Of a DNA stretch of 37,649 bases, positions 30,891-37,649 are shown in pieces (within the stretch, counting starts at the first letter, position 1; each line of letters begins with the position of its first letter). The stretch is from the NCBI GenBank assembly GCA_937871435.1, contig CALMQM010000096.1, positions 1 to 37,649 on the forward strand, written 5' to 3'. The translations under genes and the position numbers were made by a program. This DNA is from an uncultured Bacteroidota bacterium. Lineage in GTDB: Bacteria > Bacteroidota > Bacteroidia > AKYH767-A > 2013-40CM-41-45. The notes under the pieces are model-generated. The model searched no databases. It saw nothing but the letters and a program-made list of their open reading frames with translations, and had not been told where the DNA came from.

Positions 30891-32564
30891 CTATTTTTTG
30901 TCAAAACGTTTCGCGATTTCTTCCCGTGAAAAAGCATTGAACGTCATCGCAGCAGTCAGCCCGCCTTTTCGTGCTACACAAATTCCGTAATGCATATCGT
31001 GGTAGCCTTCTTTTCTGTGCGCGTCCGGGTTAATTGAAATCATCACATTTTTTTCCAGCGCATAAGGAATGTATCTCCAATCCAGATCCAGTCTGTATGG
31101 ATTTGCATTTAATTCCATCACAACATTGTTTGCCGCGCAGGCATCAATCACTTTTTTATAATCTATAGGATATCCTTCCCGAGCAAGGAGAAGTCGTCCT
31201 GTAGGATGTCCGAGAATGGTAGTATAAGGATTTTCAATCGCTTTAATCAGTCGTTGCGTTGCTTTTTCCTTGTCCATCCTGAGGATGGAATGGACTGAAG
31301 CAACAATAAAATCGAACGACTTCAGTATTTCCTCCGGATAGTCGAGTGAGCCATCCGCCAGGATATCGGATTCTATTCCTTTGAAAATTTTGAAGGGAGC
31401 AAGCGATGCATTCAGTTTCTCAATCTCCTGATGTTGCTGCAGGATTCGTTCCGGTTGCAAACCATTTGCATAAAAAGCGGTTTTGCTGTGATCACATATT
31501 CCGAGATACTGATATCCGAGTTCCTTGCAATAAACAGCCATCTCTTCGAGTGTGTGTGCACCGTCACTGTATGTACTGTGATTGTGGAGAATACCTTTCA
31601 GATCACTGTCAGTTACCAGAACCGGAAGTTTCCCGTCTTTGAGAAAAGTGAACTCGGCAGCTCCTTCTCTTAATTCAGGTTCAAAATAGGGTAACTGTAC
31701 CGAAGCATATATTTCCTCTTCCGATTTAGCCTGAATGTTTTCTTTCCAATTGTAATTTTCCTTTAGTAATCGAATGTGTTCCGGATTTCCGGTAGTATCA
31801 AACAGGAGGGAAGCGTAATTTTCTTTTGTGCCGATGAATATATTGAGTGGTAATTTACCTGCTATGTTTGCGCTGATAGAATTATTTTCAGAGCGAAATG
31901 AATCTTTATCCATTAATGGATGTGATTGAATGAATTCAGCCAATGCTGCGTGATCATCACAGGCCACAACCATGTCGATTTGTGTTTGTACTTCAAGTTT
32001 TCTTCTGAAGTCTCCGGAATAAGAACATTCACTCACCAGTCCGCTGTTGCGCAAATCCTGGAATAATTGCAAAGCGATCGGTTCAATCACCGCGTACAAA
32101 TATTTCCCCTGATTCGCTTCAGCGTATTCAATTGCCTGTTTGATTTGCAATTGTGTTTTCTCGCCAAAACCTTTTAATTCAACAAGTCGGTTTTCATTAC
32201 ACGCGTAAAGCAATTCACCGGTTGATTCAATGCCAAGTTCCTTCCACAATGTGCGCACTTTCTTTGGGCCGATTCCTTTTACTCCAAGCAAATCGATCAC
32301 ACCTTTCGGAGTTTGTTGCAACATTTCATCCATTTCCTGGAAAGAATTCCGACTCAACAAATCACTGATTTTTGCCTGAATACTTTTTCCAACTCCTTCG
32401 ATACCTCCGATTTCCTCAATACTCATTTTTTCAATCGGAACAGGATGACGTTCCAGTTTGAACGCGGCATTCTGAATGGAACGCACTTTGAATGGATTCT
32501 CGTCATGGAGTTCCATCAATTGAGCAGTCAGTTTAAAAGCTTTCGCGATTTCTTTGTTTGACAT
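30891..32564 (-). CDS. polX: PolX-like protein: helix-hairpin-helix, degenerate polymerase domain and PHP nuclease domain
   Basis: A 557-residue PolX-family protein with full domain order. Residues 1-~160 are the Pol-beta-like 8-kDa and helix-hairpin-helix region (NPFKVRSIQNAAFKLER, GIEGVGKSIQAKISD, GVKGIGPKKVRTLWKELGI, LKGFGEKTQLQI). Residues ~165-310 correspond to the nucleotidyltransferase palm. Residues ~320-557 are a PHP phosphoesterase domain with HNHSTYSDG (His327, His329), ICDHS, GIESDI, ASVHS, GHPTGR and NPDAH, all metal ligands present. In active PolX the palm has GS...D-x-D and a third Asp. Here the equivalent positions read TQIDM (Gln195, Asp197) and LNIFIG (Asn241), so DNA synthesis is doubtful while 3'-5' exonuclease or phosphatase activity seems kept. 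The gene lies 48 bases after sppA on the same strand and is probably cotranscribed. Confidence 0.88.
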   Translation of the reverse strand: MSNKEIAKAFKLTAQLMELHDENPFKVRSIQNAAFKLERHPVPIEKMSIEEIGGIEGVGKSIQAKISDLLSRNSFQEMDEMLQQTPKGVIDLLGVKGIGPKKVRTLWKELGIESTGELLYACNENRLVELKGFGEKTQLQIKQAIEYAEANQGKYLYAVIEPIALQLFQDLRNSGLVSECSYSGDFRRKLEVQTQIDMVVACDDHAALAEFIQSHPLMDKDSFRSENNSISANIAGKLPLNIFIGTKENYASLLFDTTGNPEHIRLLKENYNWKENIQAKSEEEIYASVQLPYFEPELREGAAEFTFLKDGKLPVLVTDSDLKGILHNHSTYSDGAHTLEEMAVYCKELGYQYLGICDHSKTAFYANGLQPERILQQHQEIEKLNASLAPFKIFKGIESDILADGSLDYPEEILKSFDFIVASVHSILRMDKEKATQRLIKAIENPYTTILGHPTGRLLLAREGYPIDYKKVIDACAANNVVMELNANPYRLDLDWRYIPYALEKNVMISINPDAHRKEGYHDMHYGICVARKGGLTAAMTFNAFSREEIAKRFDKK

Positions 32565-35890: not shown

Positions 35891-35920
35891 TTGTTTTGTA
35901 AGGTAGAAATGATAATTTTG
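35891..35920 (+). promoter_or_regulatory. Promoter of the OmpA-family gene (TTG-N19-TAATTTTG)
   Basis: TTG at 35891-35893 and TAATTTTG at 35913-35920 are 19 bases apart, the full consensus pattern. The leader to ATG 35975 would be about 50 bases. An in-frame extension from 35891 would start inside this promoter and is rejected. Confidence 0.7.
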
Positions 35921-35974
35921 CAACTTACCCGGCTTGCTCCCGTTTGGATATTACAGAATCAAAATCATTTTATC

Positions 35975-37444
35975 ATGAGAATCTTTACCCGCTTGTTAAC
36001 GTTCGCCATATGCTTCGGTTTATTTGCCGGTGCAAATGCGCAATCTGTTCAACGCGACAGTATGCACGTGGATATAAAAAGTGGCAAAATGCCGCGTTCA
36101 AGAGAATTCAATACCTGGGATTTTTCTTTGCATGGAGGTATTTGTATACCAAACACTGACATCGCTTCAAGCGATCTGAATGGAAGTAATGCCAAGCAAC
36201 ATCTGGGATATGGATTGAGTGTGACGAAATTTATTTCCCACACTTTCGCTCTGCAGGCGCAATTTGTTCGTGCAAAACTCGAAGGTGAAGACAGCAACAA
36301 ACCATTGTACAGATTTACTACCGATATTGATTATGACATTTCATTGAATGCATTGTTCCAGTTTGGTAATGTGGCATTCCTGAAACGCACACCGAATCTT
36401 GCTTTCTATGGATACGTCGGAATCGGAATGATCAAATTCAGTCCTACTACTTCCAAAGATGGCGGATTGACTTATGGAAATTATTATGTACAGGATGGTC
36501 GACTGGATCAGGTCGATTATCAAAATACTTCTGAGCTTGTAATTCCGATTGGTGTTGGTTTGAAATACCGTTTGTCAAAGAATTTTTCTCTCAGTGCTGA
36601 ATACAGTTTGCGTACAACCAATTCCGATAAACTGGATGGCTGGTATCGTTTGTTATCTGAAAATGATAATTACAATTATTTCAACCTGGGATTGACATAT
36701 CACTTCGGTGCGAAAGACAAAGTAATCGAGTGGGTGAATCCGCTTTCTACCATCTATGCTGATCTCTACGATATGAAAGATCGTGTGGATATGCTGAGTG
36801 GTGATAAAGATAAAGACGGCGTTGCCGATATGTTCGATAAAGAACCGGATACTCCTGAAGGAGCAAAAGTTTATGGTGACGGTACTTCAGTGGATACTGA
36901 TGGCGACGGTGTTCCGGATGTAAAAGACTCTGAACCTTTCTCAGCCAAAGGAGCCAAAGTGGATGCCAATGGTCATGAGATTGATACTGACGGCGACGGA
37001 ATTCCAGACAGCCGCGACCTCGAGCCGACTACTGCTAAAGGAAGTCTGGTTACCAATACAGGAGTTACTATTCCTACCGGTCCGGCCAACAAAGGTGGTG
37101 CAAGTTCTATCCTTGCCGCCAACGGATATTTGCCTTCAATTTTCTTTGATCTGAATAGTTCTGTCATCGCTCCGAAATACAATGAAACACTTGCTTCCAT
37201 TGCTCTTGTGATGCGCAACAATCCGGATATTAAATTTGATATCAGTGGTAACTGCGATTCACGCGCGAGTGATGATTACAATGTGAAACTCGGAAAACGC
37301 CGCGCTGAAGCAGTGAAAAATCACCTTGTGAAAAAATACAATATCGACGCAAGCCGTTTGAACATCACTTCACTTGGAAAGAAAGAACCAATCACAAAAG
37401 ATCACCCGATGAATCGTCGTGTTGACTTCAAAGTTTCTGAATAA
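35975..37444 (+). CDS. OmpA-family outer membrane protein with TSP3-type calcium repeats
   Basis: A 489-residue outer membrane protein. Residues 1-22 are a signal peptide (cleavage near ANA|Q). Residues about 45-250 are an eight-stranded-type beta-barrel with alternating hydrophobic strands ending GLTYHFGA. A linker (about 270-350) carries thrombospondin type 3-like calcium loops: DKDKDGVADMFD, DTDGDGVPDVKD and DTDGDGIPDSRD. The C-terminal OmpA domain (about 385-489) has LNSSVIAPKYNETL, GNCDSRASDDYNVKLGKRRAEAVKNHL (with the Asp and Arg that bind diaminopimelate) and NRRVDF, anchoring the barrel to peptidoglycan. The role is envelope structure and perhaps porin activity. Own promoter and terminator, so monocistronic. 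Confidence 0.92.
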   Translation: MRIFTRLLTFAICFGLFAGANAQSVQRDSMHVDIKSGKMPRSREFNTWDFSLHGGICIPNTDIASSDLNGSNAKQHLGYGLSVTKFISHTFALQAQFVRAKLEGEDSNKPLYRFTTDIDYDISLNALFQFGNVAFLKRTPNLAFYGYVGIGMIKFSPTTSKDGGLTYGNYYVQDGRLDQVDYQNTSELVIPIGVGLKYRLSKNFSLSAEYSLRTTNSDKLDGWYRLLSENDNYNYFNLGLTYHFGAKDKVIEWVNPLSTIYADLYDMKDRVDMLSGDKDKDGVADMFDKEPDTPEGAKVYGDGTSVDTDGDGVPDVKDSEPFSAKGAKVDANGHEIDTDGDGIPDSRDLEPTTAKGSLVTNTGVTIPTGPANKGGASSILAANGYLPSIFFDLNSSVIAPKYNETLASIALVMRNNPDIKFDISGNCDSRASDDYNVKLGKRRAEAVKNHLVKKYNIDASRLNITSLGKKEPITKDHPMNRRVDFKVSE

Positions 37445-37466
37445 ATTTTTTACGAAAGTATAATGA

Positions 37467-37498
37467 GAGGGAGTCTGTTGAGGGCTCCCTTTTTTTTT
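37467..37498 (+). terminator. Rho-independent terminator after the OmpA-family gene
   Basis: AGGGAG (37468-37473) and CTCCCT (37485-37490) pair around an 11-base loop, followed by a run of eight T (37491-37498). It starts 23 bases after the stop. Confidence 0.85.
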
Positions 37499-37500
37499 GG

Positions 37501-37556
37501 TTGTTGGTTGATGGTTGATGGTTGTTGGTTTCGTGTTTCGGGTTTCGTGTTTCGTG
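37501..37556. repeat. Eight in-register heptanucleotide repeats (TTGWTGG and TTTCGKG families)
   Basis: The tract reads as eight consecutive 7-base units: TTGTTGG, TTGATGG, TTGATGG, TTGTTGG, TTTCGTG, TTTCGGG, TTTCGTG, TTTCGTG. The two sequence families share one register, and it follows the terminator's T-run almost directly. Reverse-strand translation gives a frame (from 37588) that is repeat-encoded and not a gene. Confidence 0.9.
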
Positions 37557-37587
37557 TGGTATGCAGTTGTTAGGCCAAAGTCCCTCA

Positions 37588-37649
37588 TACCTAGTACCTA
37601 ATACCTAATACCTAATACCTAATACCTAATACCTAATACCTAATACCTA
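37588..37649. repeat. Tandem TACCTAA heptanucleotide array reaching the window edge
   Basis: Eight full 7-base units and a partial one run to the last base; the first unit is TACCTAG, the rest TACCTAA. It is separated from the first heptamer tract by 31 non-repeated bases. The true length is unknown because the window ends inside the array. Confidence 0.95.

Follow-up and report, generated by a model that had tools for sequence, protein, structure and literature searches.

Heptanucleotide repeats of the type described here already form a known class, with TAACTGA and GGGNATC among the published units. In many bacterial genomes seven bases is the commonest unit of the long simple sequence repeats, and slippage has been proposed as the cause (Mrazek et al. 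2007, as reported in PMC4679880 and PMC4692102); these second-hand accounts give no polarity rule. In Xanthomonas and Nostoc the GGGAATC and GGGGA(Y)T heptamers are described as dispersed and intergenic, with 70 convergent pairs in Xcc and 75 in Xac, and as lying closer to the gene on their 5′ side, irrespective of the way in which that gene runs (Rehm et al. 2015, PMC4692102). There is one family per genome according to that text, and the units contain GGG runs that form quadruplexes. TAACTGA heptamers occur in Beggiatoaceae, Cyanobacteria and Bacteroidetes (MacGregor 2015, PMC4679880). That account gives them a different unit from ours and a position, in the main genome, mostly just before start codons, where they were read as possible regulator sites. 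It also gives features that are shared with the present arrays: they are intergenic 7-base direct repeats, patchy over phyla, some contigs end in them, in Microcystis and certain Bacteroidetes they stand among other heptamers, and relatives lack them at the corresponding site.

The arrays studied here are likewise 7-base head-to-tail units in many, mostly intergenic, copies genome-wide, which places them in the LSSR/STRR class. They resemble what is described of the GGGAATC system in their intergenic 7-base units, convergent pairs and position bias, but at least seven families are present in a genome and are mixed within a cluster, the units mostly contain GG only, and paired arms usually belong to different families. 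Several heptamer families within one cyanobacterial genome were reportedly found by Mazel and co-workers in 1990 (cited in PMC4692102) as the STRR heptamers of Calothrix, which are alike in this respect. What is added here is a polarity that holds across families, phyla and unlike arms; it is partly known from Xanthomonas, and no general statement of it was found in the literature listings and paper sections consulted.

The cluster and its genome

The window, meaning the whole 37,649-nucleotide stretch of DNA that was analysed, is an entire contig (C96). When all of it was submitted to Tandem Repeats Finder, only three of the ten rows returned scored above 50; all three were of period 7 and lay at the right end, and the remaining rows scored 33 or less. 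The features of this cluster are collected in Table 1.

Table 1. Features at the right end of the window (TRF, Tandem Repeats Finder)
Feature	Positions	Strand	Remarks
OmpA-family outer membrane protein gene	35891..37444	+	PF00691, E 3.7e-16; PF13505, E 9.4e-09; start codon uncertain
Terminator-like hairpin and T run, directly before the cluster	37465..37493	+	1 found against 0.3 expected in shuffles
Left arm, family 1: GGTTGWT units	37499..37528	+	G-rich strand on +; unit reading and TRF row (37497-37530, TTGGTTG, 4.9 copies)
Left arm, family 2: KGTTTCG units, register continuous with family 1	37527..37557	+	G-rich strand on +; TRF row 37528-37557, GTTTCGT, 4.3 copies
Junction between arms, 31 bases	37557..37587	.	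Sequence
Lone GTCCCTC unit within junction, CGTCCCT / GGGACGA family	37580..37586	-	Family forms its own arrays elsewhere in the genome
Right arm: TACCTAR units, GGTATTA family, truncated by contig end	37588..37649	-	G-rich strand on -; TRF row 37583-37649, CCTAATA, 9.6 copies

The three arrays, their order and register, the spacer and the end of the contig inside the last array had all been described in an earlier note made from the letters of the window, and were confirmed. From position 37499 the left arm reads in unbroken 7-base register as GGTTGTT, GGTTGAT, GGTTGAT, GGTTGTT, GGTTTCG, TGTTTCG, GGTTTCG and TGTTTCG, and the TACCTAA array reaches the last base. The length given for the spacer was right, but the spacer contains the lone GTCCCTC unit. 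As regards phase-variation repeats, which sit in the promoter or reading frame of a surface gene and vary in length, the cluster lies downstream of the stop codon of the OmpA-family gene. The PF00691 match and the terminator-like hairpin are in line with an ompA terminator before the arrays. A reverse-strand peptide string of the kind foreseen, TRNTKPETR, was also found. The reading of these tracts as dispersed heptamers that share a mechanism is supported in part: the right arm has its G-rich strand on the opposite strand to the first two arrays, and this orientation, which had been overlooked, is the informative part. None of the window units GGTTGWT, KGTTTCG and GGTATTA contains GGG, and TAACTGA differs from all of them. 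The cluster folds no better than shuffled sequence (z 0.15). A PolX-type DNA polymerase gene, with HHH_8 and PHP matches and a weak pol-beta thumb match, lies about 5 kb from the cluster (30891-32564, - strand).

The genome to which the window belongs (G000; 4,362,936 bases in 128 contigs) was searched for further heptamer tracts, and they were found in number. The outcome that the earlier note had named as refuting, a genome free of further heptamer tracts, did not come about. The 14-base pattern TACCTAATACCTAA gave 150 exact matches against 0 for the reversed pattern, and GTTTCGKGTTTCGKG gave 19 against 1 for the reversed control. Three units of GGTTGWT gave 92 matches and the reversed control 30, these last probably being other heptamers that fit the pattern. 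The KGTTTCG family is also present elsewhere, and at least seven families were recognised in all (G-rich strand: GGTATTA, GGTTGWT, KGTTTCG, GGTTCCT, GGGACGA, AGTGAAT and AGTTGTT). Four long contigs (398,000 bases), picked for length and for holding a pattern match, contained 11 clusters. In the same 398 kb there were 19 arrays of period 7 and at most 11 of any other period from 5 to 12, and none of period 7 in one block-shuffled copy. The corresponding counts were 47 against 6 or fewer in G008 and 41 against 5 or fewer in G042, two other array-rich genomes sampled in stretches that were selected around pattern matches. That period 7 is the commonest in these stretches agrees with the earlier proposal of a common mechanism rather than chance.

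The proposal that the repeats are dispersed and intergenic also held: besides the genome-wide TACCTAATACCTAA matches, there were 140 arrays in the stretches sampled, of which 15 run into a called open reading frame (ORF), several of these ORFs probably being over-called. As had been suggested, arrays coincide with contig breaks, 13 of 23 inspected contig ends lying within 5 bases of one, a count from ends mostly chosen for a nearby pattern match; most of the clusters read stand within contigs and are flanked left and right by unique sequence. At two loci of G000 (L235, 2939-3414; L236, 2305-2797) composite clusters of mixed families are themselves repeated in tandem two to three times, so larger units duplicate as well.

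Distribution

Among 61 genomes searched, three units of TACCTAA were found only in G000, GGTTGWT in five genomes and three units of GTTTCGN in five. The last pattern gave 327 matches in G042 and 32 in G008; G042, a 7.2 Mb genome of the same class, has by far the most of the 61. A scan of named genomes for four units of TACCTAA returned at least 112 stretches. The 80 for which a title was given belong to Bacteroidota, Ignavibacteria, Chloroflexota, Cyanobacteria, Proteobacteria, Bacillota and other groups, and metagenome bins are numerous among them. Clusters of the same kinds also occur within a single 2.7 Mb contig of G008, and records whose titles name isolates, e.g. Taibaiella koreensis and Bizionia, carry them too. 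Units of the form RGTWNYD were matched in 184 of 386 genomes of the class, a figure which shows spread and not grammar, since the reversed control also fits real heptamers. With a virus origin in mind, a viral collection was scanned; heptamer arrays were rare there, with four units of TACCTAA in one stretch and three of GTTTCGG in 23 (contigs L327-L350, some of which may be host DNA).

Two cluster-bearing sites of G008 were compared with its sisters G001 and G010, at about 70% identity, for spacer length only. The spacer with the cluster is about 292 bases long at the first site, against about 80 in the sisters, and about 203-245 bases at the second, against 42 or 93. A palindrome of the type CCTGCC..AAGCTTTAGC..GGCAGG recurs in G008 at the centre of, or between, heptamer arms (L261, L264).

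Polarity of arms and single arrays

For a count of orientations, arrays were called where at least 12 of 14 bases matched at distance 7, simple sequence being removed, and were signed by G/C skew (0.3 or more either way); arrays 200 bases or less apart were joined as a cluster. This gave 313 clusters: 60 from 913,575 bases of G000, 34 from 160,000 of G042, 20 from 120,000 of G008 and 199 from 112 loci of named genomes. The stretches were mostly chosen for holding a heptamer pattern, a selection that is neutral between the two possible orders. Both orientations were present in 77 clusters, of which 73 run from G-rich to C-rich, one is reversed and three are C-rich at both ends. The G-rich-first clusters comprise 21 in G000, 5 in G042, 11 in G008 and 36 in named loci, these 36 spanning at least 21 assemblies by title. 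The single C-rich-first cluster is in a named genome (L104, Moorena), there being none in G000, G042 or G008, and the three with like ends are all in G000. Under five alternative settings there were never more than three reversed clusters; the loosest array threshold gave 94 G-rich first, 3 C-rich first and 8 with like ends.

In each arm, then, the strand rich in G and poor in C tends to point 5′ to 3′ away from the flanking gene and towards the spacer, which sets two-armed clusters head to head. This polarity is independent of the direction of the flanking genes. The 73 clusters are flanked by genes in the ++ arrangement in 18 cases and -- in 24; 10 lie between convergent and 9 between divergent genes, and in 12 a flank is missing. 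All ten two-armed clusters with unlike ends in convergent-gene spacers are G-rich first. A TAACTGA heptamer before a start codon would present its C-rich strand, which would fit the same rule.

Arm order in fresh stretches was a test fixed beforehand. At the main settings the first set of new stretches held no informative cluster (38 clusters, none two-armed), and the second gave one G-rich-first and no reversed cluster among 13. At looser settings the first set gave six G-rich-first clusters among 70, at least one of them doubtful (L353), and none reversed; the second gave one G-rich first and one G-rich at both ends.

Nor does the polarity need the arms to match. The mean best-register distance between left and right arms was 2.82 in G000, against 2.52 after random re-pairing, 3.45 against 2.89 in G008 and 2.17 against 2.49 in named genomes. 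Matching arms were found at 5 of 28 junctions in G000, 2 of 11 in G008 and 12 of 36 in named genomes, much as in random pairing. In G042 four of five pairs match; one family dominates there and the real and random distances are both low. Paired arms are thus usually of different families and are no more alike than random pairs. This, with the failure of the window cluster to fold better than shuffles, means that hairpins or inverted duplication do not explain the order.

A lean in the same direction is seen for single arrays, whose position was taken relative to genes from simple ORF calls. Of 379 arrays, 285 have their G-rich strand beginning beside whichever gene is nearer, and so do 100 of 137 in spacers with exactly one signed array, including 26 of 36 between convergent genes. 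In a separate count by set the ratio was 61:28 in G000, 21:7 in G042, 34:8 in G008 and 133:53 in named loci. Non-repeat windows lean the same way in 56-58% of cases upstream of, or between, co-directional genes, and in 52 of 116 between convergent genes. Arrays of other periods show the lean in 42 of 65, and the effect may therefore be peculiar to heptamers only in part. Array position was the secondary measure in the new stretches and gave 32:0 in the first set and 11:4 in the second at the main settings, and 52:9 and 21:8 at looser ones. The polarity of single arrays is much weaker than that of two-armed clusters, perhaps in part because of the crude gene calls.

Two further regularities were sought. 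A common unit grammar, RGT followed by NNNN, was examined over 110 distinct units; the best register carried 2.96 bits, against 2.74 in shuffles (sd 0.08, largest of 20 2.87), and GT was present in 75 units against 69.1 expected, and the RGT grammar is not claimed. No gradient of unit decay along arms was detected in 318 arrays (Wilcoxon p 0.39); the sign counts of 82 against 154 were distorted by uneven halving and were set aside.

Origin of the arrays

Telomere fusions and end-tailing at breaks have the look of a process that works from two facing 3′ ends. The reading that we prefer, with a probability of about 0.38, is that the spacer is broken and that G-rich repeats are synthesised from each of the 3′ ends. 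A break or gap would leave two 3′ ends facing each other, and from each of them a DNA polymerase would re-copy the last seven bases repeatedly, with a preference for units that are rich in G, poor in C and unable to self-fold. The extended ends would then be sealed, leaving a short unrelated junction, and ordinary slippage would afterwards add and remove units. The seven-base step may correspond to the length of duplex held by the polymerase, as has been suggested in print, and the persistence of the arrays would require no function.

The evidence counted for this reading is the arm order in 73 of 77 clusters, the lean of single arrays, also in the new stretches, the greater length of the G008 spacers relative to those of its sisters, and the convergent pairs and position bias published for Xanthomonas. 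A polarity set by gene side against spacer side, and not by transcription, agrees with synthesis that starts at the two facing 3′ ends, and arms no more alike than random pairs are what independent extension of those ends should give. Against it we count the lack of a decay gradient, such as terminal addition might produce, the lack of a candidate gene shared by the array-rich genomes, the similar lean of arrays of other periods, the weaker polarity of single arrays, the want of an informative cluster in the first set of new stretches at the main settings, and the chance that both orientations arise and one of them disappears. What leads from the layout to the mechanism is our inference.

Candidates for the enzyme were sought among the array-rich genomes. 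No RVT_1 match to a reverse transcriptase was present in G008 (6 contigs, 99% complete), Ku was absent from G000 and G042, and G042 had no match to the PolX-type HHH_8. Each of the three is therefore missing from at least one array-rich genome and was rejected as the maker. The reason for including PolX was solely the PolX-like gene in the window; family X polymerases act at DNA ends. The RGTWNYD pattern was found in 36 of 50 genomes with Ku and in 148 of 336 others (Fisher p=0.0002, without correction for genome size or kinship).

Ordinary polymerase slippage in either orientation anywhere, followed by selection for orientations harmless to neighbouring transcripts, is in our view only slightly less probable. 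Slippage is the published cause of heptamer abundance (Mrazek 2007, as reported in PMC4679880 and PMC4692102), and the weak lean of background spacers upstream of, or between, co-directional genes is in its favour. However, the polarity persists between convergent genes, in two-armed clusters and single arrays alike, where the background has no such lean, and leaders rich in C and trailers rich in G would both have to be selected for simultaneously.

The Chi sites that are known are rich in G and act in one direction. Protection of DNA ends in the manner of Chi, by which degradation from a break in the spacer is halted before the gene and only the protecting orientation is kept, would account for the observed polarity, which is the one that faces such a break. 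To our knowledge Chi is a single sequence in each species, and the seven or more unit families in one genome make this explanation improbable.

Addition of repeats copied from a small RNA by a telomerase-like reverse transcriptase related to DRT10 seems to us very improbable, even though G-rich repeats growing from 3′ ends would, once joined, give a head-to-head layout. DRT10 does make tandem-repeat DNA on an RNA template (PMC12632851), and G000 has a single reverse transcriptase match (L182; C54:32-526, - strand), in a gene cut by the contig end whose best PADLOC models are Drt3a. But in the best-studied case the DRT10 products have a 9-base repeat; they are primed by protein, and entry into the chromosome is not known. 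The arrays here are of many families, not tied to one RNA, so that seven or more would need equally many templates, and array-rich G008 shows no RVT_1 match.

Pairing of the inverted arms as a hairpin or cruciform, serving as a terminator or recombination site, is highly unlikely; the arms are inverted and mostly match in G042, but they seldom match in G000, G008 or the named loci, the window cluster shows no excess folding, and a hairpin does not require the G-rich arm to come first. An assembly artefact is barely credible: many arrays stand at contig ends, one of which truncates the last array of the window, but most of the clusters read are contig-internal and such clusters recur within the 2.7 Mb contig of G008 and in isolate records.

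If arrays do form by extension from both ends of a break, a wider reading is that a DNA-end process present in many phyla writes G-rich 7-base repeats onto 3′ break ends, and that head-to-head arrays are the scars of repair. This we regard as unlikely as matters stand. If it were true, an enzyme would be responsible for the 7-base step as well as for the strand bias, while the sequence present at the break end would determine that of the unit. Such clusters break short-read assemblies, and the polarity across families and phyla is worth a proper survey. A near-absolute orientation rule that is blind to gene direction, unit and phylum is a strong constraint which slippage alone does not predict, and with it the origin of the arrays becomes testable, as extension of a break from two 3′ ends or as orientation-dependent loss.
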